From positions 1-44,408 of the forward strand of contig JANJXT010000056.1 of NCBI GenBank assembly GCA_024708885.1: a DNA stretch of 44,408 nucleotides, written 5' to 3'. The DNA comes from Thiobacillus sp. (GTDB lineage: Bacteria; Pseudomonadota; Gammaproteobacteria; Burkholderiales; Thiobacillaceae). Of this stretch, positions 8,608 through 25,494 are shown in pieces. The position numbers were made by a program, and so were the translations under genes. The number at the start of each line of letters is the position of its first letter. The stretch's first letter is position 1. A model generated the notes under the pieces. The model saw only the letters and a program-made list of their open reading frames with translations. It was not told the origin of the DNA and ran no database searches.

Positions 8608-10184
8608 ATGGCCAACAACAAAGAATCCGAACGGGCGGAACTGCACAAGACCATCTGGCGCATCGCCAACGACCTGCGCGGCAGCGTGGACGGCTGGGAC
8701 TTCAAGACCTACGTGCTCGGCATGCTGTTCTACCGCTTCATCTCGGAAAACCTGACCAGCTATCTCAACGAACAGGAGCGCAAGGCTGGGATGCCCGATT
8801 TCGACTATGCCCTCCTGAGCGATGCCGATGCCGAATTCGGCCGCGCTGAGACGGTGAAGGAAAAGGGCTTCTACATCCTGCCTTCCGAACTCTTCGCCAA
8901 TATGCGCAGTCGCGCCCGGCATGATGCCAACCTCAACGAAACGCTCTCCCGCATCTTTGCCGACATCGAAGGCTCGGCCACAGGCAGTGACTCAGAAAAC
9001 GACATCAAGGGGCTGTTCGACGACCTCGACGTGAACAGTTCGAAATTGGGTCCCACCGTGGCCAAGCGCAACGAAAAACTGGTCAAGCTGCTCGACGCCA
9101 TCGGCGACCTGCCGCTCTCAAGCGACACCGGCAATTTCTCCGACAACAGCATTGACCTGTTCGGCGACGCCTACGAATACCTGATGCAGATGTACGCATC
9201 CACCGCCGGCAAGTCCGGCGGCGAATTCTATACGCCACAGGAAGTCTCCGAACTGCTGGCCCGCATCACCGTCGTCGGCAAGACCGAGGTGAACAAGGTC
9301 TACGACCCGGCCTGCGGCTCAGGTTCGCTGCTGCTCAAGTTCGTCAAGGTGCTCGGCCACGACAAGGTGCGTCAGGGGTTCTTCGGCCAGGAAATCAACC
9401 TGACCACCTACAACCTATGCCGGATCAACATGTTCCTGCACGACGTCAATTTCGAGAAGTTCGACATCGCCCACGGCGACACCCTCACCGATCCGGCCCA
9501 CTGGGACGATGAGCCTTTCGAAGCCATCGTTTCCAATCCGCCGTACTCGATCAAATGGGACGGCGATGCCAATCCGCTGCTGATCAACGACCCGCGTTTC
9601 GCCCCGGCCGGCGTGCTCGCCCCCAAGAGCAAGGCCGACCTGGCCTTTACGATGCACATCCTGAGCTGGCTGGCGGTCAACGGCACGGCGGCCATCGTCG
9701 AATTCCCCGGCGTGCTCTATCGCGGCGGTGCGGAACAGAAGATCCGCCAGTACCTGATCGACAACAACTACGTCGATGCCGTCATCCAGTTGCCACCCGA
9801 CCTGTTCTTCGGCACGACCATCGCCACCTGCATCATCGTGCTGAAGAAGTCCAAGCACGACAACGCCACCCTGTTCATCGATGCCTCGGCCGAATTCGTG
9901 CGCAGCGGCAACAAGAACAAGCTGCTGCCGGAGCACCAGCAAAAGATCCTCGATGCCTATACCGGGCGCAGGAACATCGCCCACTTCGCACGGCTGGTGG
10001 AGAACGGCGACATTGCCGCCAACGGCTACAACATCGCCGTTTCCAGCTATGTCGAGCAGGCCAATACCAGCGAAGCCATCGACATCACCGCGCTCAACGC
10101 GGAGATCGCCCGCATCGTGACGCGGCAGGCGGAACTGCGTACCGCCATTGATGCCATCGTGGCCGACCTGGAAGGAGAGCAGGC

Positions 10185-11633: not shown

Positions 11634-14600
11634 ATGAGCGAAGACTTCAAGTCTTGCCGCTACGAACCGATTGCGCTATCCAACGAGAGCACCGTCGTCG
11701 CCGAGTTTCTGCCCGAATTCCTTGGCGTTCGGGAGGCTGTCTATCAATCCGAGGCCGAACTGGAAAAGGCCTTCATCAAGCAGTTGCAGGTGCAGGCCTA
11801 TGAGTACCTGCCCATTGCCTCGGAAGCGGAGCTGATCGCCAACCTGCGCTGGGAGTTGGAGAAACTGAACAAGATTCAGTTCTCCGACGCCGAGTGGGAC
11901 CGTTTCTTCGGCACCTGCATTGCCGGCAGCAACGACGGCATCATCGAAAAGACCGCGCGCATCCAGGAAGACCACATCCAGGTACTCAAGCGCGACGACG
12001 GCAGCATCAAGAACATCTACCTGATCGACAAGCAGCACATCCACAACAACAGCCTGCAAGTCATCAACCAATATGAAGTCGAGGGTGCGCGGTCTAACCG
12101 CTACGACGTCACGGTGCTGGTCAATGGTCTGCCGATGGTGCACATCGAGTTGAAGCGACGGGGCGTGGACATCCGCGAGGCCTTCAACCAGATCAACCGC
12201 TACCAGCGCGACAGTTTCTGGGCGGGCTGCGGCCTGTTCGAGTATGTGCAGTTGTTCGTCATCAGCAACGGTACGCTGACCAAGTATTACAGCAACACCG
12301 TGCGCGATGGCCATCTGGCGGAACAACGCAGGCGAAGTGGCACCGGCGGCAGCAAGAGCAAGTCCTCGAACAGCTTTTCCTTCACCAGTTGGTGGGCCGA
12401 CGCGAAGAATCAGCCGATCACCGAGTTGACCGGCTTCACCAAGACCTTTTTCGCCAAGCACTCGCTGCTCAACGTCCTGACCCGTTACTGCGTTTTCGAC
12501 GTGGATCGCAAACTGCTGGTGATGCGGCCCTATCAGATCGTCGCGGCGGAACGCATCCTGCAACGCATCGGCACGGCCACCAACCACAAGCAGTTGGGCA
12601 GCGTCGCAGCGGGTGGCTACATCTGGCACACCACCGGCAGCGGCAAGACGCTGACCAGCTTCAAGGCGGCGCAACTAGCGCGGGGCCTGCCGGAGATCGA
12701 CAAGGTGCTGTTCGTGGTGGATCGCAAGGATCTGGATTACCAGACCATGAAGGAGTACGAACGCTTCGAGAAAGGGGCGGCCAACTCCAATACCTCGACG
12801 GCGGTGCTGCAGCGGCAACTGGAAGACCCGAACGCTCGCATCATCATCACCACCATCCAGAAGCTTTCCCGCTTCGTGACCAAGAACAAGAAGCATCCGG
12901 TCTATGACCAGCATGTGGTGGTGATTTTCGACGAATGCCATCGCAGCCAGTTCGGCGACATGCATGCCGAAATCACCCGAGTGTTCAAGCGCTATCACCT
13001 GTTCGGTTTCACCGGCACGCCGATCTTCGCTGAGAATGCCGGCACCACCGGCAACCCGCTACGGCGCACCACCGAACAGGCATTCGGCGACAAGCTGCAT
13101 ACCTACACGATTGTCGATGCCATCAACGACAAGAACGTGCTGCCGTTCCGTATCGACTACATCAACACGATCAAGGCTTCGCCCGCTATCCGGGACAAGA
13201 AAGTGTCGGCCATCGATACCGAGCGGGCGCTGTTGGCACCGGAGCGCATCACGCAGATCGTGGGCTATATCCGCGAGCACTTCGACCAGAAGACCAAGCG
13301 CAGTGCCAGCTATCGTCACGATGGCAAGCGGCTGGCCGGATTCAATTCGCTGTTTGCCACGGCGAGCATCGAGGCGGCCAAGCGCTACTACGCCGAATTT
13401 GCCGAGCAGCAAAACCCACTGCCACCGGCGCAGCGCCTCAAGGTGGGCTTGATCTACAGCTTCGCCGTCAACGAGGAAGAATCCGACGGCCTATTGAGCG
13501 AGGAAGAGTTCGAGACTGAGGGGCTGGATCAAAGCTCACGTGACTTTCTGGATGCGGCCATCGGCGACTACAACGGCCTGTTCGGTACCAGTTTCGACAC
13601 GTCCGCCGACAAGTTCCAGAACTACTACAAGGATTTGTCGCAGCGCCTGAAGAAGCGTGAGCTCGACTTGGCGATCGTGGTCAACATGTTCCTGACCGGC
13701 TTCGACGCCACCACACTGAACACGCTGTGGGTGGACAAGAACCTGCGCGCGCACGGGCTGATTCAGGCGTATTCGCGCACCAACCGCATCCTCAACTCGG
13801 TCAAGACCTACGGCAACATCGTTTCCTTCCGCGATCTGGAGCAGGCCACCAACGACGCGCTGGCGCTGTTCGGCAACAAGGACGCCAAGGGCATCGTGCT
13901 GCTCAAGCCCTACGCGGACTACTACGCCGAATACCAGAAGAAGCTCGCAGAGCTGATGGCGCTGTTCCCGCTGGGCGTGGCCATCACCAGCGAGGCGGCG
14001 CAGAAGGCGTTCATCAAGCTGTTCGGCGCCATCCTGCGGCTGAAGAACATCCTCACAGCCTTCGATGACTTCGCGGGCAATGAAATCCTGAGCGACCGGG
14101 ATTTTCAGGACTACCAGAGCCTGTATCTGAACCTGTACGCCGAATTCCGCAGCGCGTCCGACGCCGAGAAGGAGACGATCAACGACGACGTGGTGTTCGA
14201 GATCGAGCTCATCAAGCAGGTCGAGATCAACGTCGATTACATCCTGATGCTGGTCGAGCGCTACATCAGGGCCAAAGGCACCGGCCAGGACAAGGAAATT
14301 CGCGCCACCATCGAGCGCGCGATCAATTCCAGCCCCAGCTTGCGCAACAAGAAAGACCTCATCGAAGCGTTCGTGGATTCCGTTTCCCCGAAAGCCAAGG
14401 TGGATGCGGAATGGCAGGCGTTCGTTGCCAGGAAGAAGGTCGAGGAGCTTGACCAGATCATCGCCGACGAGGGCTTGAACGCCGACGAGACGAAGACTTT
14501 CGTGGACAACGCCTTCCGCGACGGCGCGATTCCGGCCACCGGCACGGCCATCACGAAGATTCTGCCGCCAGTGTCGCGGTTCTCGAAGAACAACAACCAT

Positions 14601-14669
14601 TCGGCGAAGAAGCAGTCGGTGCTGGACAAGCTGGCGGCGTTCTTCGAGCGGTATTTTGGGTTGGGGTGA
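11634..14669 (+). CDS. hsdR: Type I restriction endonuclease motor subunit
   Basis: HsdR, 1011 residues, the ATP-driven translocase and nuclease of the type I complex. The PD-(D/E)xK nuclease core is seen at about residues 155-175 (NRYDVTVLVNGLPMVHIELKRR, with Asp and ELK). Helicase motif I HTTGSGKT is near 332, motif II DECHR near 433, and motif III as FTGTP near 460. Motif VI follows as LIQAYSRTNRIL near 710. A helical C-terminal region for binding the methyltransferase follows. A strong ribosome site (AGGAGGGAG) precedes ATG 11634. The gene is intact, so restriction activity should depend on which S subunit is made. The next gene starts four bases after the stop. Confidence 0.95.
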   Translation: MSEDFKSCRYEPIALSNESTVVAEFLPEFLGVREAVYQSEAELEKAFIKQLQVQAYEYLPIASEAELIANLRWELEKLNKIQFSDAEWDRFFGTCIAGSNDGIIEKTARIQEDHIQVLKRDDGSIKNIYLIDKQHIHNNSLQVINQYEVEGARSNRYDVTVLVNGLPMVHIELKRRGVDIREAFNQINRYQRDSFWAGCGLFEYVQLFVISNGTLTKYYSNTVRDGHLAEQRRRSGTGGSKSKSSNSFSFTSWWADAKNQPITELTGFTKTFFAKHSLLNVLTRYCVFDVDRKLLVMRPYQIVAAERILQRIGTATNHKQLGSVAAGGYIWHTTGSGKTLTSFKAAQLARGLPEIDKVLFVVDRKDLDYQTMKEYERFEKGAANSNTSTAVLQRQLEDPNARIIITTIQKLSRFVTKNKKHPVYDQHVVVIFDECHRSQFGDMHAEITRVFKRYHLFGFTGTPIFAENAGTTGNPLRRTTEQAFGDKLHTYTIVDAINDKNVLPFRIDYINTIKASPAIRDKKVSAIDTERALLAPERITQIVGYIREHFDQKTKRSASYRHDGKRLAGFNSLFATASIEAAKRYYAEFAEQQNPLPPAQRLKVGLIYSFAVNEEESDGLLSEEEFETEGLDQSSRDFLDAAIGDYNGLFGTSFDTSADKFQNYYKDLSQRLKKRELDLAIVVNMFLTGFDATTLNTLWVDKNLRAHGLIQAYSRTNRILNSVKTYGNIVSFRDLEQATNDALALFGNKDAKGIVLLKPYADYYAEYQKKLAELMALFPLGVAITSEAAQKAFIKLFGAILRLKNILTAFDDFAGNEILSDRDFQDYQSLYLNLYAEFRSASDAEKETINDDVVFEIELIKQVEINVDYILMLVERYIRAKGTGQDKEIRATIERAINSSPSLRNKKDLIEAFVDSVSPKAKVDAEWQAFVARKKVEELDQIIADEGLNADETKTFVDNAFRDGAIPATGTAITKILPPVSRFSKNNNHSAKKQSVLDKLAAFFERYFGLG

Positions 14670-14673
14670 GACG

Positions 14674-17043
14674 ATGGCCGAAACGGCTGTGGCGCTTGAT
14701 GCCGATGAGCTGGCCACGCTGCGCGCGGAGAACGCGCGCCTGACCGCGCTGCTGGACGCACACGGCATCGCGTGGCGCGTACCGCCCGAGACGGAAACGC
14801 CGACGGTTGCGGAACCACCCTCGCGCCTCAACACCGACGAGAAGGTTGCGCTGTTCCGCACGCTGTTTCGTGGCCGAACGGATGTGTACCCGATCCGCTG
14901 GGAAGGCAAGACCAGCGGCAAATCCGGCTACGCCCCGGCCTGCGCCAACGAGTGGCGTGCCGATGTCTGCGAGAAGCCGCGCATCAAGTGCAGCGAGTGC
15001 GCCCACCGCGCCTTGCTGCCGCTGACCGATGCGGTGATCTACGACCATCTGGCCGGTGAACACACGGTCGGTGTCTATCCGCTGCTGGAAGGCGACACCT
15101 GCCATTTCCTCGCGGTCGATTTCGACGAGGCCGACTGGCGCGAGGATGCCAAGGCCTTCATCCAGTCTTGCACTGAACTGGGCGTATCGGCGGCGCTGGA
15201 GATTTCCCGCTCCGGCCAGGGCGCGCACGCCTGGGTGTTCTTCGCCGGTGCGGTATCGGCCCGGGATGCGCGTCGTCTGGGCACCGCCATCATCAGCCAT
15301 GCCTGCACGCGAACGCGACAACTGAAGCTGACGTCCTATGACCGCCTCTTTCCCAACCAGGACACGATGCCCAAGGGTGGCTTCGGCAACCTGATCGCCT
15401 TGCCCTTGCAGAAGAGGCCGCGCGAGCTGGGCTTCAGCGTGTTCGTGGATGCCGACCTCCAGCCGTATTCCGACCAGTGGGCGTTTCTCGCATCCGTCGC
15501 GCGGATGCTCGCACACGACATCGAGCCGACCATCCTGCGCGCGACGGGCAGCGTGCATCCGCTGGACGTGACCTTCATCGACGACGAGGATCTGGCCACG
15601 CCGTGGAAGCGGCAAAGCAAGCCGGCCAAGCTGGCCGGGCTGATGCCCCAATCGCTGACCGTGACCCTGGCCAATCAGGTCTATTTCGAGAAGGCGCAAC
15701 TGCCGCAAGCGCTGGCCAATCGTCTGATCCGGCTGGCGGCCTTCCAGAACCCGGAGTTCTACCGGGCGCAGGCAATGCGGATGTCGGTGTGGGACAAGCC
15801 GCGCATTATCGGCTGCGCCGAAAACTTTCCGCAGCACATCGCGCTGCCGCGCGGGTGTTTCGACGCCGCGTGCGACCTGTTGGCGGATAACGGCATTCGT
15901 CTTGACTTGCGCGACGAGCGCCACGCCGGAGCACCTATCGCCGTCGGCTTCAGCGGCATGCTTCGCCCAGACCAGGAAGCCGCCGTGGCGGCGATGCTCG
16001 GGCACGATGACGGTGTACTTTGCGCGCCAACGGCCTTCGGCAAAACGGTGACGGCGGCGGCCATGATCGCCCGACGCGGCGTGAACACCCTGGTACTGGT
16101 GCATCGCACGGAATTGCTCAAGCAGTGGCAGGCGCGGCTCGCCACATTCCTCAGCGCAGACAAGGGCGTGATCGGTGCTATCGGCGGCGGCAAGAACAAG
16201 CCCAGCGGCCAGATCGACATCGCGGTGATGCAATCGCTTTCGCGTCAAGGCGAAGTCGATGCGCGGGTCGAGAACTACGGGCAGGTGATCGTGGACGAAT
16301 GCCACCACGTCGGCGCGGCGTCCTTCGATGCCATCCTGCGGCGCACGAAGGCGAAATACGTGCTCGGCCTGACGGCAACGCCGATTCGCCGCGACGGGCA
16401 ACAGCCCATCATCTTCATGCAGTGCGGGCCGATCCGTCACAAAGCGGCGCAGCCGCTTGACGCGCCGCACGATCTGGCGGTGGTGCCATGGTTCATCGAG
16501 TCGCCGATTGCCCTGCCGCCGGAGGCGGGCATCCAGGATGTGTTCCGGCATCTCGCCCAAAACCAAGCCCGCACCGACGCAATCGCCAGCGCCATCACCG
16601 AGGCCTTCCGGCAAGGCCGCAAGGTTCTGGCGTTGACCGAACGGACCGAGCACATTGACGCCATTCGCGCCGCGTTGGCCGACGAAATTCCCGAGCCCTT
16701 CGTATTACATGGGCGGATGTCGAAGAAACAACGCGCCACACTGATCACGGCGCTCGATGCCCTGCCGCCCGATGGGCCGCGCGTGTTGCTGGCCACCGGC
16801 AAGCTGGTCGGCGAAGGCTTCGATCATCCGCCACTGGACACCTTGGTGCTGGCGATGCCCGTCTCGTGGAAGGGCACGCTCCAGCAGTACGCCGGTCGCC
16901 TGCACCGGGAGCACGCCAGCAAGATCGACGTGCGCATCATCGACTTTGTGGACACCGGGCATCCGGCGCTGCTGCGGATGTGGGACAAGCGCCAGCGTGG
17001 CTACCGGGCGATGGGGTATCGGGTTGAAACGGCAGAGTGGTGA
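14674..17043 (+). CDS. TOTE-type primase-helicase fusion protein
   Basis: A 789-residue two-part protein. The N-terminal half resembles the archaeo-eukaryotic primase domain of the TOTE conflict systems: a Cys cluster (APACANEW, ADVCEKP, IKCSECAHR), then the LAVDFDEADW motif with two metal-binding Asp near 149 and 151, and SRSGQGAHAWVFF. The C-terminal half is a superfamily 2 helicase: CAPTAFGKT near 448, VDECHH near 540, LTATPIRRDG near 568, and QYAGRLHRE near 740. ATG 14674 lies four bases after hsdR, in the same orientation, so it is likely co-expressed with the restriction genes. It may add a nucleic-acid-dependent defence step or a repair role; this is inferred from domains and location. 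The upstream in-frame ATG at 14656 overlaps hsdR and is less likely. Confidence 0.85.
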   Translation: MAETAVALDADELATLRAENARLTALLDAHGIAWRVPPETETPTVAEPPSRLNTDEKVALFRTLFRGRTDVYPIRWEGKTSGKSGYAPACANEWRADVCEKPRIKCSECAHRALLPLTDAVIYDHLAGEHTVGVYPLLEGDTCHFLAVDFDEADWREDAKAFIQSCTELGVSAALEISRSGQGAHAWVFFAGAVSARDARRLGTAIISHACTRTRQLKLTSYDRLFPNQDTMPKGGFGNLIALPLQKRPRELGFSVFVDADLQPYSDQWAFLASVARMLAHDIEPTILRATGSVHPLDVTFIDDEDLATPWKRQSKPAKLAGLMPQSLTVTLANQVYFEKAQLPQALANRLIRLAAFQNPEFYRAQAMRMSVWDKPRIIGCAENFPQHIALPRGCFDAACDLLADNGIRLDLRDERHAGAPIAVGFSGMLRPDQEAAVAAMLGHDDGVLCAPTAFGKTVTAAAMIARRGVNTLVLVHRTELLKQWQARLATFLSADKGVIGAIGGGKNKPSGQIDIAVMQSLSRQGEVDARVENYGQVIVDECHHVGAASFDAILRRTKAKYVLGLTATPIRRDGQQPIIFMQCGPIRHKAAQPLDAPHDLAVVPWFIESPIALPPEAGIQDVFRHLAQNQARTDAIASAITEAFRQGRKVLALTERTEHIDAIRAALADEIPEPFVLHGRMSKKQRATLITALDALPPDGPRVLLATGKLVGEGFDHPPLDTLVLAMPVSWKGTLQQYAGRLHREHASKIDVRIIDFVDTGHPALLRMWDKRQRGYRAMGYRVETAEW

Positions 17044-17062
17044 CAATTTGCCACCACTCTGC
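17032..17062. promoter_or_regulatory. Perfect 11-base inverted repeat before second TA pair
   Basis: GCAGAGTGGTG (17032-17042) and CACCACTCTGC (17052-17062) form a perfect inverted repeat around nine bases. It overlaps the helicase stop codon and ends 34 bases before the antitoxin ATG. There is no T-run after it, so it looks less like a terminator than an operator for the ribbon-helix-helix antitoxin. Confidence 0.6.
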
Positions 17063-17096
17063 TAGACTTCGCTCGTCGAATCTCCGGAGCCCGAAC

Positions 17097-17420
17097 ATGA
17101 CCACCACGACGCTTGACCGTGGCCGCATCACGGCACGTGTACCGATGGCCGTGCAGGAAACCTTGGAAATGGCCGCCAGCCTGACGGGTGCGACCCTGAA
17201 CCAGTTCGTCGTCCAGACCGCCTTGCGCGAGGCCGAACGCATCATCGAGCAGGAGCGCGTCATCCGCCTTTCCGCCCGTGATACCGAGGCATTCCTCGCG
17301 GCGCTGGACAACCCATTGCCACCCAACGCCGCGTTGAAGGCGGCCCTCGAAGACTACGCGGCGCGACGCAATGATCAGACTGGAACCCTTGACTGGGCAC
17401 CACGACCGAAACGGGTTTGA
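17097..17420 (+). CDS. DUF1778-family antitoxin, second copy
   Basis: A 107-residue paralogue of the antitoxin at 7826. The shared segments are GRITARVPMAVQETLEMAASL, ATLNQFVVQTALREAERII and VIRLSARDTEAFLAALDNPLPP. ATG 17097 is chosen because a GGAG site lies about nine bases upstream and because it aligns with the first copy; the frame is open further upstream into the inverted repeat. The toxin gene overlaps its 3' end by 50 bases. The neighbouring perfect inverted repeat is a good candidate binding site for this protein. Confidence 0.87.
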   Translation: MTTTTLDRGRITARVPMAVQETLEMAASLTGATLNQFVVQTALREAERIIEQERVIRLSARDTEAFLAALDNPLPPNAALKAALEDYAARRNDQTGTLDWAPRPKRV

Positions 17421-17889
17421 TTGCGGCGTCGAGGTTCTCAACGTCTGGCTGAAGCAGACCGCGCTCCAGCATCAGGGCAAGGGAATCTCGCGCACCTTCG
17501 TCGCCGTGCCTGCCGATGAAGCGGCGGTGCAAGCGTGGACGCGGTCCGGCTACGCGTTGGAGGCCAACGGCATCCTCGGCTTCTATGCCCTGACCTCGGC
17601 GTTCGTGTTGACCAACGACTTGCCCGCCAAGCAGGCCAAACGCTATCCGCGCCAGATTCCAGTCACGCGCCTCGGCGGTTTGGCCACGCGATCAGATATG
17701 CAAGGGCAAGGCTTGGGTCAGTTGTTGTTGGCCGACGCCGTGAATCGCGCCCGCATGGCGGCGCAGGCCGTGGGCAGTGCGGGCTTGTTCGTGGACGCGA
17801 AGAACGAAGCTGCGGCGCGGTTCTACCAACGCTACGGATTCACGCCTTCCACCGACCAGCCGCTGAAACTGTTCCTGTCGTTGTGGTGA
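17371..17889 (+). CDS. GNAT acetyltransferase toxin, second copy
   Basis: A 172-residue GNAT toxin homologous to the one at 8106: LTGHHDRNGFDCGVEVLNVWLKQ matches its N-terminus, and the acetyl-CoA loop is RSDMQGQGLGQLLL. The end FYQRYGFTPSTDQPLKLFLSLW matches the family. It has an insert near residues 50-65 (AVQAWTRSGYALEANG) compared with the first copy. Together with the antitoxin it closes the defence cluster on the right, as the first pair opens it on the left. Confidence 0.87.
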   Translation: MIRLEPLTGHHDRNGFDCGVEVLNVWLKQTALQHQGKGISRTFVAVPADEAAVQAWTRSGYALEANGILGFYALTSAFVLTNDLPAKQAKRYPRQIPVTRLGGLATRSDMQGQGLGQLLLADAVNRARMAAQAVGSAGLFVDAKNEAAARFYQRYGFTPSTDQPLKLFLSLW

Positions 17890-17969
17890 GCGGTTTCCCG
17901 CCCGTTCTGCGGGTGCCACCAGCCGGTCGCCCGACCGCCACCACGCGCCCGGTTCGCCCCTGTTCCGCC

Positions 17970-18344
17970 CTATCTTCTCTCGAAACCTGCGCCAACTTCT
18001 TCGCCGTGGCACACGCAGACGGCGTTGTTCATCAACCACCTGCGCGCGTGCTGATGGGAATGGTTGGCGCTGTCCAGCCCCGCGCGCTGCATGGTTCGCT
18101 CCGCCGTCGTGGCCTCGCCCTTGAACGACCACAGCGCGCCGAACACCTTCGACTGACCATCGGTGAACTGGATCGGCGTGGCCTGAACATCCGGCAGCGT
18201 CGCCCACTTGAAATCTGCCGAGAACGGCCCGTTCACCGGCGTGGCCGGATCGGCAACTACTGGCGTCGCGGGCGGCGACGTGGCGATGAACGAAATCGCA
18301 CCGCCATAGAGCGTGAACGTTCTTCCAGCGCCAGCCACTCGACG
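17970..18344 (-). pseudogene. Protein fragment of unknown family
   Basis: The minus-strand frame reads as natural protein (FTLYGGAISFIATSPP, then FSADFKWATLPDV, FGALWSFKGEATTAER, RRWLMNNAVCVCHGEE) and ends at TAG 17972-17970. There is no start codon with a ribosome site nearby and the upstream DNA belongs to a different fragment, so I take it as a remnant. I do not recognise the family. Confidence 0.4.
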
Positions 18345-18387
18345 CCCGCGCCGAAGGGCGATCAGTGAACCCAACTGCATCGTTACC

Positions 18388-18498
18388 ATGTGGCTGGACT
18401 TCGCCGAGAACCAGGCCTGCCGCCGCAAGGACGTGTTCCTGAAGGACTGGGCAGAACGGCTTGATGCCTTCCTGACCTTCAACAAAGATCGTGGATAA
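18388..18498 (+). pseudogene. RhuM-family C-terminal fragment
   Basis: A 36-residue stretch, MWLDFAENQACRRKDVFLKD then WAERLDAFLTFNKDRG, closely resembles the C-terminal part of RhuM/virulence-type proteins often found beside type I restriction genes. The rest of such a protein is missing on both sides. It is a remnant, perhaps of an older restriction-linked cargo. Confidence 0.55.
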
Positions 18499-18572
18499 CG
18501 CGATAGATCGATTGCAGGCGAACTGACCTGTCTGCGTGTGATTTCGTGTGCAGGTAGCATTGTCGGACCAGT

Positions 18573-18593
18573 GTGGCGCAAAATATGAGCCAC
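18573..18593. promoter_or_regulatory. WYL-regulon palindrome, copy 1
   Basis: GTGGC, then GCAAAATATGA, then GCCAC: a 21-base imperfect palindrome ending 29 bases before the start of the WYL regulator gene. It is the most divergent of four copies in the 11-base centre. Its place before the regulator suggests autoregulation. Confidence 0.8.
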
Positions 18594-18622
18594 CACAATT
18601 CCAGGTTTTGGCCCGAGACCCC

Positions 18623-19615
18623 ATGAACCGCACCGAGCGCTTCTACAAAATCGACCAGATGCTCCACGAACGGCGCGTGGTGCCGATCGAGGTGTTTCTG
18701 GAAGAGCTCGATGTGTCGAGGGCAACCTTCAAGCGCGACATGGAGTACCTGCGTGACCGGCTCCATGCGCCGATTGTCTGGGACCGCGATGCCGGCGGCT
18801 ATCGTTTTGAGAGCGTCAAGGCTACGGGCCCTGCCTACGCGCTGCCAGGGTTATGGTTCTCGTCCGGTGAACTGTACGCGCTTCTGGCCGCCCACAAGCT
18901 GTTGGGCGATATCGAGCCGGGAATTCTGGCATCCCACGTTGCGCCCTTGCAGGCCCGCTTGGCGGCCTTGCTGGAGGCCTCGGGCCATTCGGCCTCGGAA
19001 ATCACCCAGCGAGTGCGGCTGTTGTCGATGGCCAAGCGCACGGTGGAGCTGCGGTTTTTCACTGACATCACGATTGCTCTGCTGGAGCGCAAGCGCATCG
19101 AGATCGATGCCTGGAATCGCGGGCGGAATGAGACCAATACCCGAACCATCTCGCCGCAACGCCTCGTCCATTACCGCGACAACTGGTATCTGGATGCCTG
19201 GTGCCATCTGCGCAACGACCTGCGCAGTTTTTCTGTGGATGCCATTCAGCGGGTGAAGGTGCTGCGTGAGAAGGCGCGCAACGTGGCGACGGCCAAGCTG
19301 GATGATCACTACTCCTCGGCCTACGGCATTTTTGCCGGCCAGCCCAAAGACTGGGCTGTGCTGCGCTTTTCGCCGGAGCGTGCCCGATGGGTACAGTCGG
19401 AACGCTGGCATCGGGAACAGCAGGCTGAAGTGTTGGCGGACGGCAGCTATCGCCTGCGTGTGCCCTATGCCGACGAGCGCGAGTTACTGATGGACATCTT
19501 GCGCCACGGGCGGCATGTGGACGTTGAAGCACCGGCGTCGCTGCGCCAGGCGGTGGCCGACGAGGTGTCGGCCATGACCGGGATGTACCACGGCTGTTAT
19601 TTGATCAATTCATGA
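18623..19615 (+). CDS. WYL-domain transcriptional regulator
   Basis: A 330-residue regulator of the YafY/WYL class. The N-terminal winged helix is seen at residues 1-60 (RTERFYKIDQMLHERRVVPI, VSRATFKRDMEYLRDRL). The WYL domain (about 150-210) contains the family motif in NWYLDAWCHLRND near residue 187, and a C-terminal WCX-type region follows. Related proteins (CapW, BrxR) repress defence loci and sense nucleic acid or nucleotide ligands. ATG 18623 aligns with the family N-terminus; the upstream extension reads through the palindrome. The gene is the first of a four-unit cluster in which every unit carries the same palindrome. Its stop codon lies inside copy 2. Confidence 0.9.
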   Translation: MNRTERFYKIDQMLHERRVVPIEVFLEELDVSRATFKRDMEYLRDRLHAPIVWDRDAGGYRFESVKATGPAYALPGLWFSSGELYALLAAHKLLGDIEPGILASHVAPLQARLAALLEASGHSASEITQRVRLLSMAKRTVELRFFTDITIALLERKRIEIDAWNRGRNETNTRTISPQRLVHYRDNWYLDAWCHLRNDLRSFSVDAIQRVKVLREKARNVATAKLDDHYSSAYGIFAGQPKDWAVLRFSPERARWVQSERWHREQQAEVLADGSYRLRVPYADERELLMDILRHGRHVDVEAPASLRQAVADEVSAMTGMYHGCYLINS

Positions 19616-19634
19616 GGCGCAGTATTTGAGCCAC
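19614..19634. promoter_or_regulatory. WYL-regulon palindrome, copy 2
   Basis: GAGGC, then GCAGTATTTGA, then GCCAC. It overlaps the last bases of the regulator's stop codon and ends 39 bases before the small membrane protein gene. A TAGGCT at 19643-19648, at the same distance as in copy 4, may be a -10 element. Confidence 0.85.
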
Positions 19635-19673
19635 TTGGCCAGTAGGCTTGTCCCACCTGAAGGGAGACTGGCC

Positions 19674-19883
19674 ATGATCATCGACTTTATCCTCGCCGTG
19701 TCAGCCGGCGTCGTCACGCAGAGCTTCTTCATATTCCTGATTCTCATCGTCTTCGCCGCCTTGTTCATCCGACCCGATCGGCCGTTTTCGAGCGGCCTGG
19801 TGAAATTGGCGTTGATGGCCTTGGGCATCTCGGCGCTGTTCTCGCTCTTTGGTGGCGGGGGCGACTGCGATTGCGATTTGTGA
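19674..19883 (+). CDS. Small membrane protein
   Basis: A 69-residue protein, not recognised. Two hydrophobic segments are visible (about residues 4-32, IIDFILAVSAGVV and FFIFLILIVFAALFI, and 43-58, VKLALMALGISALFSLF), followed by a short Gly-rich tail with alternating Asp and Cys (GGGGDCDCDL). ATG 19674 has an AGGGAG site six bases upstream. It is the first gene after palindrome copy 2 and lies four bases before the nuclease-like gene, so the two form one unit. The DCDC tail might bind metal, which is speculation. Confidence 0.75.
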   Translation: MIIDFILAVSAGVVTQSFFIFLILIVFAALFIRPDRPFSSGLVKLALMALGISALFSLFGGGGDCDCDL

Positions 19884-19887
19884 CGCC

Positions 19888-21945
19888 ATGACACTGCGGC
19901 AGACAACCGAGGTGGTCAAGGCCGCCGAACGATCGCCCCGAGCACCGTCGGCAAGCGATCTGGTCATGGCCTGGGCAGTCGACCAGGATACGGGGCAACC
20001 CCGGTACATCCTTCAACTGGATGCCGCCCATCGTGGCAGTAAGTCAAACTGCAAATGCCCGAGTTGCGACTTGCCTCTTGTCGCGGTCAATGCGGCGAAA
20101 GTGGCATTTCAAAAGCGACCGCACTTTCGCCACCCCGAAGGTGCCGCACGGGAGAAATGCGTCATTGTCGCTGCGCGCAAGGCCCTGACGGAAATGTTCG
20201 GGCAGCAGGAGCGTATTGTTTTGCCCCGCCGCCGCCGCTCGCGGAACGTCGAAGGGTTGAGCGGCCGCTATTTCGATGCCTGGGTCGAACGGCCGTCGGA
20301 ATCTGTTGGCATCAACGAATGCACGTTCCGGGATGAGGCGACGGCCATTCTGACCCTTGATGACGGACGCCGGTTGGTGGTGCAGCTCGTCGGGCATGGT
20401 GAGGTTTCCCACCTGGAAGGCGATGAGGCATTGCTGGCGCGGATCGAGCTCGAAGTCGATGATCCGGCGATTGCAATGATGTCGCCCGAGGAAATCTTCG
20501 AGCGCTTGGAGCTGGCCTGGTCTGGCGCGTGTTGGGCACAGCATTGGGCGGACGCCGATCTGGATCGCGATGCGGAAGCGAAAGCACGTGCCAGCGCGGC
20601 GGATGCACTCGACTGGCTTGAGCAGACAGATTTGCCAAGTGACCTGGGGCCGGCGGAACGACGTGAGACCCTGCTGCATCGGGAGCTGAAAGCGATTCTG
20701 GAGCGCGAAAAGCGGATTTGCTTACCGGGTCTGCATGTCGAAGCGCAGTGGCGACGCAGTAATGGTTTCGTTGATCGGAGGACGTGGTTTGAGCCGGCAT
20801 CCGAAGTGGAGCTGACCTCTGTTGAACTCGAGGTGCATCTCGGCTGCTCGGTACCGGACGTGATCGCGACCTGGTTAGATGACGACCGCTGGACACATTC
20901 CATCTTGATCGAGGTAACGGTGACGAACCCGATTGGAGAGGAGCGGATTGATCGCCTGTCGTCGTTCGGTTTTCCCGTCCTTGAGATCGACATCGGCCGC
21001 ATGGGAGGCATCGTGACGCGTGAGGAGTTCTCGCGTCTGGTCGTCGATGAGATTGCCGGCAAGCGTTGGCTCTATCACCCGACCCTGAATGAGGAAGAGG
21101 GCCACCTGCTTGCGGTCATGAAGCGCGAGTCAGAGGAGCTGGACACGGCGGCGCGCAGGCGGCAAGAAATCTTGGATATTCCAGCGGCAGATTGGGGGCA
21201 ACGATATCTCCGGGCATTACGCCAGCGTTGGCAGGAACAATTGGCTGCCGGCGACGGCACAACTGGCGGTGAAGCATGGCAGAAAGCGCAGCATGCGCTA
21301 TTGGGGGCGGTAAGCGCCCTTGAGGCCCACGGGTATCCCATTGCCCCCTTGGTGGACGAAAACCCCCTGCGCACCATCATCGCAAGACTCTTGTCGATTC
21401 GCTGTGGTACCGGCGTGGAGTACAAGTTCGACAACGCGTGGGCCGTCATCAACGCCATTCGCTGCGACCGGGGCGAGTCCTCGTTGAAGTGGCACACCTT
21501 GTACCTGATTGCCGTGCGTACTTACCAGCCGACAATAACCTCTGAGCAGGAGCAGAAAGTTGCTAAATGGCGGGAGACGGTGAAGTCCAGCATCGAGAAT
21601 GAAGAACCGATGTATGTGCGCGACACCGTCTATGACCGATTGCTCGGACTGCTGTTTCCTGAGATGCGGTCTGCGCTGAACAATCCCTTCGGCACGCCAC
21701 TGCAGATTCTCGAAAAGGACTACGACGCAACTGAGGATTTGCCGGAGCCGCCGCCAGCCCGGTTCGTGACATCGAATGACGCATTCTTGCGCGGCAAGGC
21801 GTTTTCAGAATGGGCTCAACGCCATCCAGATGCGGCCAAAGCGTGGCTGAACAGTCCGGCCGGAAAGAACCACCAGGAGCAGCGTGGCGGTCAAGGCCGT
21901 GACGGAAGTCAGCAATATGGCCAATGGAAAAGGAAGCATACGTAG
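19888..21945 (+). CDS. CoiA-like putative nuclease
   Basis: A 685-residue protein, not matched to a named family. Near residues 55-95 a Cys/His pattern (CKCPSCDLPL ... KRPHFRHPEG) resembles the N-terminal zinc-binding part of CoiA competence proteins. Around residues 318-370 a segment with PDVIATW, then ILIEVTVTNPIGEERIDRLS and VLEIDI, has the spacing of a PD-(D/E)xK nuclease core (Asp, then Glu-x-Thr instead of Glu-x-Lys, then a hydrophobic strand). The C-terminal third is helical and the tail is rich in Gln, Gly and Lys. I infer nucleic-acid cleavage or binding; the missing Lys weakens a nuclease claim. It follows the small membrane protein after four bases. Confidence 0.7.
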   Translation: MTLRQTTEVVKAAERSPRAPSASDLVMAWAVDQDTGQPRYILQLDAAHRGSKSNCKCPSCDLPLVAVNAAKVAFQKRPHFRHPEGAAREKCVIVAARKALTEMFGQQERIVLPRRRRSRNVEGLSGRYFDAWVERPSESVGINECTFRDEATAILTLDDGRRLVVQLVGHGEVSHLEGDEALLARIELEVDDPAIAMMSPEEIFERLELAWSGACWAQHWADADLDRDAEAKARASAADALDWLEQTDLPSDLGPAERRETLLHRELKAILEREKRICLPGLHVEAQWRRSNGFVDRRTWFEPASEVELTSVELEVHLGCSVPDVIATWLDDDRWTHSILIEVTVTNPIGEERIDRLSSFGFPVLEIDIGRMGGIVTREEFSRLVVDEIAGKRWLYHPTLNEEEGHLLAVMKRESEELDTAARRRQEILDIPAADWGQRYLRALRQRWQEQLAAGDGTTGGEAWQKAQHALLGAVSALEAHGYPIAPLVDENPLRTIIARLLSIRCGTGVEYKFDNAWAVINAIRCDRGESSLKWHTLYLIAVRTYQPTITSEQEQKVAKWRETVKSSIENEEPMYVRDTVYDRLLGLLFPEMRSALNNPFGTPLQILEKDYDATEDLPEPPPARFVTSNDAFLRGKAFSEWAQRHPDAAKAWLNSPAGKNHQEQRGGQGRDGSQQYGQWKRKHT

Positions 21946-21980
21946 CAGGCCGCCATATCCATCAAGCAAAATAGTTATCG

Positions 21981-22001
21981 GTGGCGCAGCATTTGAGCCA
22001 C
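21981..22001. promoter_or_regulatory. WYL-regulon palindrome, copy 3
   Basis: GTGGC, then GCAGCATTTGA, then GCCAC, ending 54 bases before the rtcB start and 35 bases after the nuclease-like gene. GACAAT at 22011-22016 is a possible -10 element at nearly the same offset as in copies 2 and 4. Confidence 0.87.
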
Positions 22002-22055
22002 TTGCTCCTCGACAATGCTCGCACTGGTGAATGGAGCGACGAAGGGGAGTGACAT

Positions 22056-23252
22056 ATGCCGATCAAGCAAGTTCTGACCGACCAGAGGATACCGGTCAAA
22101 ATCTGGACCGATGAGGTCGACGACAACTCGAAAAAGCAGCTGACCAATATCGCCAGCCTGCCTTTCATTCATCACCACGTCGCCGCCATGCCAGACGTGC
22201 ATCTGGGCATCGGCGCGACCATCGGTTCGGTGATCGCCACCCACAAGGCCATCATTCCTGCCGCTGTCGGCGTCGATATTGGCTGCGGCATGGTGGCCTG
22301 CCGGCTTTCCGTCACGGCCAATGATCTAGACGAAAAATCCTTGAAGGGGGTCTTCGACCAGATCAGCCGGGACGTTCCCGTTGGTCGAGGCATGCACAAC
22401 AACCGAAGGTCATTCGAGGATCAAGCGCGACCGTTCGCGACTGGCCTTAACCGGATTCTGGAAAAGCATCCGGTACTGGAAAAGACCATCTGCGGCACGA
22501 CCAAGTGGGTCAAGCAACTCGGCACCCTCGGCGGTGGCAACCACTTCATCGAGGTTTGCCTGGATGAGTCCAACCAGGTGTGGGTCATGCTGCACTCGGG
22601 GAGTCGCGGCATCGGCAATGCGATGGCCGAATACTTCATCGGGCTGGCCCGCAAGGACATGGAACGCTGGATGATCCAGTTGCCAGATCGCGATCTCGCC
22701 TACTTCCCTGAAGGCACCGAACATTTCGACGACTACGTCGAGGCGGTGCATTGGGCGCAGGAATATGCGCTGCAGAATCGGCAGTGCATGGTCGATCTGG
22801 TGCTGGCCGCGCTCAAGCGCCACCTGCCGCCCTTCGATGTCACCAGTGAGGTGGTGAACTGCCATCACAATTATGTGGCTCGGGAGCATCACTTCGGCGC
22901 GGACGTGTGGGTGACGCGCAAGGGCGCCATCCGGGCGCGCGAGGGCGACCTGGGGATCATCCCGGGCAGCATGGGGGCGCGCAGTTACATCGTTCGCGGC
23001 CTGGGCAACCCGGAGAGTTTCACGTCCAGCGCCCATGGCGCCGGCCGCCGGATGAGCCGCACTGCGGCCGAAAAGCAGTTCACCGAAGCCGATCTCGCGC
23101 GGCAGACCGATGGGGTGATCTGTCGCAAGGACAGTGGCGTCATCGACGAAATTCCCGGCGCCTACAAGGATATCGATGCGGTGATGGAGAACCAGAAGGA
23201 TCTCACCGAAACGCTGCATACCCTGAAGCAAGTGGTTTGCGTGAAGGGGTAG
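22056..23252 (+). CDS. rtcB: RtcB-family RNA ligase
   Basis: A 398-residue RtcB ligase, which uses GTP and Mn2+ to join RNA 2',3'-cyclic phosphate or 3'-phosphate ends to 5'-OH ends. The metal and nucleotide motifs are all present: GVDIGCGM near residue 73, GGGNHF near 158, HSGSRG near 179, NCHHNYV near 268, GSMGARSYIV near 307, and SSAHGAGRRMSR near 325, in which the His is guanylylated. It is the short bacterial form. There is no rtcA cyclase and no RtcR-type activator beside it, unlike the E. coli operon. A GGGGAG site precedes ATG 22056. It shares a unit with the 355-residue gene and carries palindrome copy 3. Confidence 0.95.
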   Translation: MPIKQVLTDQRIPVKIWTDEVDDNSKKQLTNIASLPFIHHHVAAMPDVHLGIGATIGSVIATHKAIIPAAVGVDIGCGMVACRLSVTANDLDEKSLKGVFDQISRDVPVGRGMHNNRRSFEDQARPFATGLNRILEKHPVLEKTICGTTKWVKQLGTLGGGNHFIEVCLDESNQVWVMLHSGSRGIGNAMAEYFIGLARKDMERWMIQLPDRDLAYFPEGTEHFDDYVEAVHWAQEYALQNRQCMVDLVLAALKRHLPPFDVTSEVVNCHHNYVAREHHFGADVWVTRKGAIRAREGDLGIIPGSMGARSYIVRGLGNPESFTSSAHGAGRRMSRTAAEKQFTEADLARQTDGVICRKDSGVIDEIPGAYKDIDAVMENQKDLTETLHTLKQVVCVKG

Positions 23253-23277
23253 TGCGACGAAAGGGCAGGGAGAAATA

Positions 23278-24345
23278 ATGGATACGCGAAATTTGGTGGT
23301 CGGCAGCCGTATCGAACACGGGCTGCACGGATCGGGAACCGTCACCTTTGTCGGCACGGATTATCTCGGCATCGCATTTGATGGCACCGGGGAGGCATTG
23401 ATTCGCCGCGAATCCCTGGAAAAGGATGTGCCCGTTGTCGTTGAGCCGCAGGAGCCTGCTCGCGATACGCTTCCCTGGCCGGCATCGACTTTCATCCCCG
23501 AGGGAGAGAGCGCTCAACATTACCTGGGTTCGCACTGGGATCCGTTTGTTGAAGACTCGAAGGAGCTGATGGGTCGCCTGCCGGAAATCCTGCCGAATGC
23601 GCTGGTGCAGACGGGGTACGGTGAAAGTCGCAAACCGGCCCGATCGTTGCCGGATGACTGGCCCAAGGGGTTTCAGCTGGTCTGGCCACTGCGCGTGCAA
23701 GGGATGGCGCTGATTCTCCGTGTCGAGAAGGAGGCGAACATGCTCGTCAGCCTCTTCCCCTTCTTTGCAACCGGCAGCCAGCACACCCTGACCGTGCGCG
23801 AGGTCAGCGTCTGGGAGGGCGGACTGGAAGCTCAAATCACCGCAAGCTGGGGCGAAGGTGAAGTGACGTTCTTCGATACGCAGTACCTGATCAATCGGGC
23901 CTGGTACGAAACGGGCAAGGAGTACGACTTCATCTTCTCCGGCATCGCCTACAACGCTGGCCCCGCCGAGAAACACGAGTGGAAGATCAACCGCCATCCC
24001 GATGAGGTGGCTTGGATGAACCAGCGGTTGAAAGAGGGCGAGGAGCCCCATGAGACCGCTTGCACCGTAAGCATGGACGGCGCCGCAATGTTTCTGCCAG
24101 TCAGTGGCTGGGACGTGGATGACTACAGCTTCCACGCGCCAGTGAAATCGGTGACCGAGTTCAAGGATTGGCTGGGCCAGGATGGCTGGCGGGTGCGCGC
24201 CACGGTAATGCGCTTCGGCGACGAGGATGCCGATCTGGACATTCTGATCACCCGGCGTGCCTGGTCGGGAGAAGCACCGCCGCAAGTCGGCCAGGATATC
24301 GAGGGACGGTTATGGTTGCAGGGCTATCTCTGGATGCCGAGGTGA
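23278..24345 (+). CDS. Unknown protein in the rtcB unit
   Basis: A 355-residue soluble protein that I do not recognise. The first 45 residues (VVGSRIEHGLHGSGTVTFVG, YLGIAFDGTGEALIRR) look like a small beta-barrel of the tudor/KOW kind often used to bind nucleic acid or protein. The rest is rich in Trp, Glu and Asp, without membrane segments or clear catalytic motifs; the end has a beta-rich OB-like feel (RVRATVMRFGDEDADLDILI ... EGRLWLQGYLW). It starts 25 bases after rtcB with an AGGGAGA site, so it is probably co-translated with the ligase and may act as its partner. Confidence 0.7.
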   Translation: MDTRNLVVGSRIEHGLHGSGTVTFVGTDYLGIAFDGTGEALIRRESLEKDVPVVVEPQEPARDTLPWPASTFIPEGESAQHYLGSHWDPFVEDSKELMGRLPEILPNALVQTGYGESRKPARSLPDDWPKGFQLVWPLRVQGMALILRVEKEANMLVSLFPFFATGSQHTLTVREVSVWEGGLEAQITASWGEGEVTFFDTQYLINRAWYETGKEYDFIFSGIAYNAGPAEKHEWKINRHPDEVAWMNQRLKEGEEPHETACTVSMDGAAMFLPVSGWDVDDYSFHAPVKSVTEFKDWLGQDGWRVRATVMRFGDEDADLDILITRRAWSGEAPPQVGQDIEGRLWLQGYLWMPR

Positions 24346-24357
24346 AATGACCGGTGG

Positions 24358-24378
24358 GTGGCGCAATCTTTGAGCCAC
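24358..24378. promoter_or_regulatory. WYL-regulon palindrome, copy 4
   Basis: GTGGC, then GCAATCTTTGA, then GCCAC, ending 41 bases before the HIRAN gene. TAGGCT at 24387-24392 has exactly the same offset (29 bases from the motif start) as in copy 2, which suggests a fixed promoter layout. Confidence 0.87.
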
Positions 24379-24419
24379 TCGCACGCTAGGCTGGTGTCGT
24401 ATTTGAACTGGGAGGCACC

Positions 24420-24830
24420 ATGAGCAGACGATTGTTCCTTGAGCGGATTGCCGCGCTGATCGGCATCAGTGTTGCTGCGCCGGTGGCCCGTGCAGCGGCG
24501 CCCAGAAAGGTGGAGCTGCAACGATCACCCGTGGCGGGATTTCAGTACCACCAGGGGGAAGCCATCTGGCCATTGTTGATGGTGGGGGCTTCCTTGAGCC
24601 TGGTGCGCGAGCCCGGCAATGCCCATGATCCGCGGGCGGTCCGTGTCGATTGGCAGGGGCAGAAACTGGGCTACGTCCCACGCATTGATAACGCGGCGGC
24701 GAGCCACCTGCTGGATGCCGGTCACGTGCTGCACGCCGAGATCGTCACGCTCCGGGATTCCGACAATCCCTGGGACCGTGTCGAATTCGCGATCTTCCTG
24801 GCCGATGGGGGAGACGACAATGGCGGATGA
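24420..24830 (+). CDS. HIRAN-domain protein with Tat-like signal
   Basis: A 136-residue protein. The N-terminus SRRLFLERIAALIGISVAAP ends in ARAAA and looks like a twin-arginine signal peptide (RR followed by a hydrophobic stretch). The rest is a HIRAN domain: VAGFQYHQGE, LSLVREPGNAHDPRAVRVD, LGYVPRIDNAAASHLLDAG. HIRAN domains usually bind 3' ends of single-stranded DNA or act within repair helicases, so export would be odd; the signal may instead be a membrane anchor. It heads the last unit of the cluster, with a GGGAGG site before ATG 24420, and overlaps the next gene by 11 bases. Confidence 0.82.
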   Translation: MSRRLFLERIAALIGISVAAPVARAAAPRKVELQRSPVAGFQYHQGEAIWPLLMVGASLSLVREPGNAHDPRAVRVDWQGQKLGYVPRIDNAAASHLLDAGHVLHAEIVTLRDSDNPWDRVEFAIFLADGGDDNGG

Positions 24831-25494
24831 GCCGCTCCTGCCGCACCGGATCACCTCGCTGGGCGAGGCCATGCGGCCGCTCTGGCGAAAGATCGAGACT
24901 CAGCTCGGCCACCACGTCCTTCCAGCCAGTGCGGCGTATGGGATGGCCGAGATCGTCTCCAGCCATCTGGATGCGCTGCAGGCGCTCACGCACCGGCTCA
25001 CCGACCGTATCGACAGCCTGATGTCCGATGTGGTGACGAACGAGAGCGCGACCGACGGTGAGGTTTATCGTGCCGTCGGCCGCATCGAAGCATGTGTGGA
25101 TGACCTGCTTGCCGGCTATCGCGAGGTGCGCGCCCTCAATGCCTACGGCCGCGACGCCGAGGCGCGCGATCTGTTGGCAGGCGTATACCGGCACATGCTG
25201 GTGGAGATCAGGGACTGGCTCGAAGATCTGGTCGAAACGCTGGCGGATCCGACGGCCGTGGTCAGGCGGCGCGGCTTGCCGACGACCGGGTACGTCGAGC
25301 TCCCTCTTACCCTGACGCTGACGGCCGCCCTCGAGCTGGCTGCCTTGTCGCGCTGGATCGAGGGGAACGCAGGTGGTACCGCCAGAAGGAAATCTGGGCT
25401 TGGTTTTTGGGGTACCGTAGGGGCAGCGGTTCTTGTCTGGGGAATCGCCGATGCGCTGTTGGGCGATGACGACTGCGGAACGGGAGGTGCATAG
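24820..25494 (+). CDS. Unknown helical protein with C-terminal membrane anchor
   Basis: A 224-residue protein, not recognised. Residues 1-170 are mostly helical (LWRKIETQLGHHVLPASAAY, SSHLDALQALTHRL, and DLLAGVYRHMLVEIRDWLED), a proline-containing stretch follows, and residues 198-217 form one hydrophobic helix (FWGTVGAAVLVWGIADALLG). The tail GDDDCGTGGA resembles the acidic Cys tail of the 69-residue protein earlier in the cluster. ATG 24820 lies inside the HIRAN gene, so translation is coupled. It may hold the HIRAN protein or other products at the membrane; this is inference. The next gene (kup) converges 69 bases away. Confidence 0.7.
   Translation: MADEPLLPHRITSLGEAMRPLWRKIETQLGHHVLPASAAYGMAEIVSSHLDALQALTHRLTDRIDSLMSDVVTNESATDGEVYRAVGRIEACVDDLLAGYREVRALNAYGRDAEARDLLAGVYRHMLVEIRDWLEDLVETLADPTAVVRRRGLPTTGYVELPLTLTLTAALELAALSRWIEGNAGGTARRKSGLGFWGTVGAAVLVWGIADALLGDDDCGTGGA

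Follow-up and report, generated by a model that had tools for sequence, protein, structure and literature searches.

The WYL protein DriD of Caulobacter crescentus is described as the activator of a LexA-independent damage response. It acts on a 20-bp pseudo-palindrome that lies over a poor -35 (1-2 of 6 positions matched) and keeps the same distance to weak -10s throughout; the site at its own gene drives the divergent operon and not driD (PMC12340889). The mycobacterial WYL activator PafBC uses a -26 site instead of a -35 (PMC11804915, PMC6789036), and recA is reported as part of its regulon (PMC8223512). SiwR of M. smegmatis is described as a homodimeric WYL activator of adjacent genes that works through the -26 region and binds single-stranded DNA (ssDNA) (PMC10693628). 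CapW and BrxR are reported to repress: the palindromes of CapW overlap the -10 (PMC9122588), and the repeats of BrxR lie between promoter and gene, downstream of the predicted -10 (PMC9122601). Here, a 44,408-nucleotide stretch of Thiobacillus sp. (contig JANJXT010000056.1 of assembly GCA_024708885.1, our contig C13, called the window below) was analysed, which belongs to a 2.56-Mb genome of 84% completeness. It carries a gene for a WYL regulator of 330 amino acids (aa), three downstream gene units (A, B, and C), and four 21-bp palindromes. Our results, drawn from sequence comparison, suggest that the palindromes are probably operators of a DriD-like WYL activator encoded at 18623, which would drive the three units, with activation, by analogy, as the quite probable sign of regulation.

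Results

Four palindromes in the window

An earlier note, made from the letters of the window, had listed four copies of the palindrome, each ending 29-54 bases before a start codon. All of its coordinates were reproduced, and the GAGGC of the second copy and the centre sequences were given correctly. Palindrome 1 (GTGGCGCAAAATATGAGCCAC; 18573-18593, minus strand) has the WYL gene on one side and a leftward promoter core on the other, and palindrome 2 (GAGGCGCAGTATTTGAGCCAC; 19614-19634, plus strand) overlaps the WYL stop codon. Palindromes 3 (GTGGCGCAGCATTTGAGCCAC; 21981-22001, plus strand) and 4 (GTGGCGCAATCTTTGAGCCAC; 24358-24378, plus strand) lie upstream of the RtcB unit (unit B) and the HIRAN unit (unit C), respectively. 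The distances from palindrome end to start codon are 29, 39, 54, and 41 bp (starts at 18623, 19674, 22056, and 24420). All four are pseudo-palindromes, with 7, 6, 7, and 7 of 8 arm positions paired, versus 8 of 8 in L022, L023, L027, L029, L031, and L036 among others (L and G numbers denote loci and genomes). The core AAAATAT of palindrome 1 was also found in L007 and L011.

A window scan with a motif built from the four sites, allowing up to 3 mismatches, returned the four sites and three reverse readings of the same sites, while matches in 100 dinucleotide shuffles averaged 0.49 and never exceeded 3; the four palindromes exceed the chance expectation. The absence of further copies from the window, as claimed before, held for this full motif but not for the bare GTGGC-N11-GCCAC, which has one extra exact match at 16125, within the open reading frame (ORF) 14656-17043. 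Genome-wide, the bare form occurred at 16 places versus 4 for a reversed control. The more specific GGCKCA-N5-TGAGCC occurred at only 5 exact places, the four window sites and one on another contig, which lies inside a 756-aa ORF without a -10. The motif is not a repeat scattered over the genome, and no further exact intergenic GGCKCA-N5-TGAGCC copy was found in the 84%-complete genome. Among the one-mismatch places inspected (L184-L201 minus L196 and L198, about half of those listed), none combined a position outside ORFs with a -10 at an offset of 8 or 9 bp from the palindrome. A hexamer at this offset was present in L201 but within a 707-aa ORF, and L199 was outside called ORFs without a -10 hexamer. 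In the loci inspected, no additional intergenic target of the window's genome came to light.

A -10 at fixed spacing and no -35

The feature that the earlier note overlooked is a fixed spacing between the palindrome and a -10. In the window, the -10-like hexamers TAGGCT (19643-19648), GACAAT (22011-22016), and TAGGCT (24387-24392), all on the plus strand, follow palindromes 2, 3, and 4 at offsets 8, 9, and 8, respectively. When the 152 sides of 76 sites were scored, hexamers of at least 4 bits appeared 33 times at offset 8 and 20 times at offset 9, versus 1-9 times at each of the remaining offsets between 0 and 30, and the strict form TANNNT gave 22, 7, and 0-4, respectively. In addition, 31 target sites were listed by hand and oriented by their gene; five of these came from later check loci (L098-L102 were fetched, and four yielded the five sites). 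At offset 8 or 9, all 31 reached 1.4 bits or more, compared with 7.7% of shuffled flanks, and one of these two offsets was the best among 24 in 28 sites. A coding match in L100 was without a -10. A search for a -35 at spacers of 16-18 gave best TTGACA matches of 1-3 in 6 at all 31 sites, no better than random DNA. Since the -10 lies 8-9 bp past the palindrome and no -35 is present, the palindrome covers approximately -41 to -21 and replaces the -35. The layout of the PafBC motif, TTGTCRGTG-N8-TANNNT, resembles that of TTGAGCCAC-N8-TAGGCT in the window.

This geometry also bears on a different reading of the palindromes, either as RNA hairpins (attenuators or terminators) or as a mobile repeat, which is extremely improbable. 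Two of the four palindromes fold better than shuffled RNA (z of about -2.9), but palindrome 2 shows no such advantage (z 0.04), and that of palindrome 3 is moderate (z -1.7). No T run follows the palindromes, and the -10 is downstream, so that the palindrome would not be transcribed from that promoter. The hairpin or terminator was rejected on the position of the -10 and the folding of palindrome 2, and the mobile repeat on the genome-wide motif searches, with their lack of another exact intergenic copy.

The regulator resembles WYL activators

The 330-aa protein (18623-19615, plus strand) is a class A WYL-domain transcription factor, including the N-terminal winged helix-turn-helix (HTH). The Pfam families WYL (1.3e-19) and WCX (2.6e-18) matched above their cut-offs, whereas HTH_11 (21.8 bits) was under its 25-bit cut-off; the AlphaFold2 (AF2) model placed helices at residues 3-16, 22-29, and 33-45 plus a wing in this N-terminal block (pLDDT 77-92). 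The whole model had a mean pLDDT of 71 and a pTM of 0.36, and only the ranking of its Foldseek matches was used. By profile and fold, the nearest solved structures were PafBC and DriD, both activators, before BrxR and CapW. The top Foldseek matches were DriD, at 17-19% identity and a TM of at most 0.41 for full-length chains with this model of mean pLDDT 71, and PafBC scored above DriD in the profile comparison. A CapW structure with ssDNA bound was also among the Foldseek results, so ssDNA binding alone does not separate an activator from a repressor.

Activation is favoured because of the DriD-like site layout together with a profile and fold nearer to PafBC and DriD than to BrxR and CapW. 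It is unlikely that the protein is a repressor of the CapW/BrxR type, in which a WYL dimer would block polymerase at the palindromes until phage infection frees it. In its favour, published work places both of these WYL proteins at imperfect palindromes or inverted repeats of defence loci, polymerase could likewise be kept out by a dimer sitting at the -35, and Iyer et al. (2022) predict that WYL factors beside the genes of ARG systems are negative regulators (PMC9503650). However, the palindromes end 8-9 bp upstream of the -10 in all 31 listed sites without overlapping it, and no -35 is there for a freed polymerase. Steric blocking alone would hardly explain such strict spacing across unrelated genes, and the regulator is less similar to CapW and BrxR in profile and fold. 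The promoter geometry thus speaks against the predicted repression for this WYL subfamily. The earlier note had modelled the system on CapW and BrxR, but the activator DriD is the better parallel: in both, the palindrome stops short of the -10 and occupies the place of the -35.

The operator accompanies relatives of the regulator

WYL relatives were sought in genome contigs with a 27-sequence alignment, and the best 80 of at least 580 confirmed loci were studied: 14 close loci at 68% identity or more (L007-L020, several on short contigs) and 66 at 47-57%. With a position matrix trained on 19 of their sites, 13 of these 14 loci yielded a site. In 9 of the 66 more distant loci, a matching palindrome was located within 150 bp before the WYL start, mostly at 13-48 bp (one at 120). 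Symmetric forms such as GTGGCTCA-N5-TGAGCCAC or GTAGCTCA-N5-TGAGCTAC occurred in this group, and both arms often carried matched double changes (GTAGC/GCTAC, GTGTC/GACAC, and GAGGC/GCCTC). In many relatives, the operator is conserved together with the WYL regulator down to approximately 50% identity. In the clade of the window, the half nearer the gene was better conserved (13.6 versus 11.4 bits over 8 positions, 31 oriented sites). Around the recognition helix (S32-R46), 5 of 15 positions were invariant and 4 more nearly so in a 31-sequence alignment, and this family has the half-site in common.

The genes next to the close relatives vary from locus to locus. The commonest neighbour was a HIRAN match (12 of 14 loci), a relative of the 224-aa protein of unit C was present in 7, and RtcB with the 355-aa protein of unit B only in L007. 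The palindromes of these loci precede variable units, including Wadjet-like, type I restriction, and type III restriction genes. L007 has DUF3584, MksE, and DUF7281 genes (Pfam, above cut-off) between the WYL gene and RtcB, a Wadjet-like set with marginal PADLOC scores, and L009 has a type I restriction operon and a GmrSD-like gene. In L014 (2090-4129), L016 (2896-4944), and L019 (3372-5402), proteins of approximately 680 aa with a C-terminal HIRAN and a weak PcfJ-like match replace the small HIRAN protein. Next to the sites of the approximately 50% relatives (n=10) were ARPP-1 (three times), ADP-ribosylglycohydrolase, VWA, HD, and response regulator proteins, and two proteins without a family. 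Four Variovorax plasmids carry a WYL relative at about 50% identity. L087 (1-10339), an IMG/VR contig filed as viral, has the palindrome with divergent type III restriction genes; its WYL protein is a 113-aa start, 93% identical, cut by the contig end, and the contig could be host sequence filed under the wrong heading or else a mobile island.

Leftward orientation of palindrome 1

Palindrome 1 does precede the WYL gene in position, as the earlier note said, but its -10 at the conserved spacing, GACAAT (18559-18564, minus strand, 8 bp to the left), points left, away from that gene; the right side scored -0.6 bits at this spacing. In L007, the same palindrome with GATAAT faces hsdM. Across the family, 17 sites are WYL-proximal, and 11 of them are directed solely to the far side, away from that gene. 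No intact leftward gene was recognisable at 17890-18573, left of palindrome 1, which is probably the remnant promoter of a divergent operon that has been lost and that in the closest relative is hsdM. Palindrome 1 may also restrain the WYL promoter by overlap. In L023, L024, L027, L029, and L031, a TATAGT hexamer borders the palindrome at its edge upstream of WYL, so the dimer may restrain the WYL promoter there as well. On the WYL side, palindrome 1 is abutted by CACAAT (18594-18599) in the window and by TACAAT (9973-9978) in L007, a possible WYL -10; in the family, offset 0 formed a minor second peak (9 of 152 sides). A fragment at 18388-18498, which we take by eye to be a RhuM-like C-terminal fragment, and a 209-aa open stretch on the minus strand occupy the place of the divergent operon of L007.

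Occurrence across the order

A scan of 399 genomes of the order used the pattern GGCTCA-N5-TGAGCC-N10/11-TANNNT, a form that misses the window's own sites because of their left arm GGCGCA. It gave 67 matches in 48 genomes (one palindrome read in both directions), compared with 2 for the reversed pattern and 9 in 7 genomes for N14/15 spacing, three of these nine matches being one repeated sequence. A WYL relative at E<=1e-60 was present in 134 genomes, which include 44 of the 48 with a site and 90 of the 351 others (odds ratio 32, Fisher p 3.5e-19, shared ancestry uncorrected). At least 16 of the 67 sites were within 6 kb of a WYL relative among the matches listed. The remaining 51 were not seen near a listed relative, and thus the regulon seems to reach beyond the neighbourhood of the regulator. 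Of 10 genomes checked for LexA, 7 had its DNA-binding domain, and G060, G135, and G178, which have the WYL operator, gave no match; absence of LexA is therefore not a general condition.

A downstream ORF was assigned to 63 of the 67 sites by a simple ORF caller, some of them short and perhaps spurious. BLAST clustering gave Cas3 (six times), SNF2 helicase and RecC (three times each), and, twice each, RecA, N6/N4 methylase, a VWA protein, the 69-aa protein of unit A, and two unassigned families. RmuC, ribonucleotide reductase, SIR2, Nudix, a metallo-beta-lactamase fold, and Bro-N occurred singly. Among 30 downstream proteins compared with Pfam, 8 were without a family at E<=0.01 and another 3 matched below cut-off only, including a SprT-like protein in L107. 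The two RecA genes (L132 and L133; G435 and G099, one genus) were confirmed by translation, with the palindrome and -10 approximately 122 bp before the start, and no LexA box was found near either start with a loose pattern. The Cas3 proteins are of the type I-C form. In L202 (928-11113), the site stands ahead of cas3c-cas5c-cas8c-cas7c-cas4c-cas1c-cas2c and of an array whose repeats are spaced as in CRISPR; the cas3 ORF call begins before the site, and the Cas3 match begins at residue 50, after it. In L203 (468-13011, from the genus of the window), the site is at the WYL stop codon, before cas3c (genes checked: cas3c, cas8c, and WYL). The N-terminal part of the PADLOC Cas3c model matches the WYL regulator, which suggests natural WYL-Cas3 fusions. 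Since the same operator stands before recA, recC, CRISPR, and restriction genes, the island in the window would belong, as a single branch, to a larger regulon of damage response and defence. Among the 399 genomes, unit B had no second case: the 355-aa protein was present at E<=1e-40 in 1 of them, the window's own.

Evidence against the proposed operators, and a different factor as a very unlikely rival

Several findings weigh against these assignments, in addition to the prediction of Iyer et al. cited above. No 4-bit hexamer was present at offset 8 or 9 in 27 of the 76 sites, including window sites 2 and 4 (TAGGCT, 3.2 bits), and palindrome 2 has a -10-like hexamer of 3.7 bits on its other side too. 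No site reached the threshold in L099 or in L012, the contig of which stops just past the WYL gene. The operator is far from universal: under a looser rule, 34 of the 66 loci at 47-57% identity had any match, some inside ORFs; the strict GTGGCKCA-N5-TGAGCCAC was found in 3 of 149 relatives (the window genome counted), 65 of which have a WYL relative; and 90 of the 134 WYL genomes lack the palindrome-plus-TANNNT form. Of the 17 WYL-proximal sites, 2 face the WYL gene, 2 face both ways, and 2 neither, and the WYL gene itself is downstream of 4 of the 67 sites. The downstream ZIP transporter, 5'-nucleotidase, and HDAC have no evident link to damage. Finally, the genomes are not independent samples, and four genomes with a site had no WYL match at E<=1e-60. 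Searching this and related genomes for the motif, as the earlier note had proposed, brought out conservation with the regulator and co-occurrence, but not a universal operator.

The genomes with only one partner, namely the 4 of 48 with a site and the 90 with a WYL relative, would also fit a different transcription factor on the palindrome, the WYL linkage then reflecting the defence-island neighbourhood. This is very unlikely given the odds ratio of 32, the many loci in which sites adjoin the WYL gene, and a recognition-helix region conserved in a family with a common half-site. Among the four genomes with a site and no WYL match, G115 does carry a truncated WYL gene beside its site.

Genes of the island and its surroundings

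All six genes of the three units are on the plus strand. Unit A comprises a 69-aa small protein (19674-19883), without a Pfam family and with relatives after a like site in L010, L019, L101/L131, and L165, and a 685-aa protein (19888-21945), also without a Pfam family, which had 388 relatives at E<=1e-3 among 8000 candidates scored. By eye, we presume its N-terminus to be CoiA-like, which is an impression and not a result. Unit B encodes an RtcB RNA ligase of 398 aa (22056-23252; Pfam RtcB 1e-132) and a 355-aa protein (23278-24345) whose family was not recognised, without a Pfam match but with 248 relatives at E<=1e-3. Unit C encodes a 136-aa HIRAN-domain protein (24420-24830; Pfam HIRAN 1.9e-17) and a 224-aa protein without a Pfam match (24820-25494). 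Just left of the island, at 17037-17889, a TacA-like antitoxin gene overlaps a GNAT acetyltransferase gene, a toxin-antitoxin pair. HsdR (type I restriction) and then a 795-aa PrimPol-helicase, which matches CRISPR-associated PrimPol models, occupy 11634-17043, and the window scan with up to 3 mismatches found no full-motif palindrome before either gene. These surroundings form a defence-island setting.

Discussion

In the proposed mechanism, a WYL homodimer would bind the palindrome at approximately -41 to -21, over the missing -35, and would recruit sigma-70 RNA polymerase to the weak -10 located 8-9 bp downstream. In activators of the DriD type, ssDNA in the WYL domain enhances DNA binding and activation. 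By analogy with DriD, PafBC, and SiwR, the signal in the WYL domain here would most likely be ssDNA or another nucleic-acid fragment from phage attack or genome damage. Its binding would induce together the units of the 69-aa and 685-aa proteins, of RtcB and the 355-aa protein, and of HIRAN and the 224-aa protein.

The earlier note had proposed a single regulon of seven genes in four units under the WYL regulator. One operator family tied to this regulator before linked units is borne out by conservation and co-occurrence, and three downstream units (six genes) stand as the supported targets, but the CapW/BrxR mode is unlikely, and palindrome 1 is not oriented to the WYL gene, which is a possible target only. 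The system resembles DriD, as published, in the pseudo-palindrome of about 20 bp over the -35, the fixed distance to a weak -10, the poor -35, the winged HTH-helices-WYL-WCX order, and the DNA-repair targets, and perhaps also in an own-gene site that faces a divergent operon. The identity over the fold match is 17-19%, and the targets here, unlike those of DriD, include many exchangeable defence and repair cassettes. PafBC is likewise a WYL activator with an element that replaces the -35 and recA among its reported targets, but it is a heterodimer on a non-palindromic motif (PMC6789036). The single 330-aa WYL gene in the locus and the palindromic site do not fit a PafBC-type system. SiwR matches the proposed homodimeric activator of adjacent genes, but its described targets differ (DinB/YfiT-like). 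CapW and BrxR share with this system the WYL fold of regulator, the palindromes or inverted repeats, and the defence loci, but not, in their published descriptions, sites 8-9 bp upstream of the -10. In the RtcR-rtcBA RNA repair system, RtcB is also under stress control (PMC7790460), but RtcR is described as a CARF-domain sigma-54 activator next to rtcBA, whereas RtcB here is paired with the 355-aa protein under a WYL-type site. Among the matches listed from the open-access literature, no title concerned a WYL activator regulon in Betaproteobacteria or WYL control of RtcB.

More broadly, Burkholderiales may possess, alongside LexA or in its place, a regulon for damage and immunity that is switched on by a WYL protein, a proposal whose chances we consider even. 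A single promoter module of approximately 40 bp would drive recA, recC, helicases, type I-C CRISPR-Cas, restriction, Wadjet-like, and RNA repair genes, defence cassettes would join by acquiring the module, and the window would be a compact RtcB/HIRAN island version. CapW and BrxR, the defence-island WYL regulators with the published descriptions cited here, are repressors, and an activator would contrast with them and contradict the published prediction for ARG-linked WYL factors (PMC9503650). If the proposed activation is true, RtcB would have a regulator other than RtcR, and activators among the WYL proteins could be told from repressors by a simple test. The promoters of WYL activators would then be readable from sequence, so that regulons could be listed genome by genome, and genome damage or phage replication would be linked to innate and CRISPR immunity and to RNA repair.

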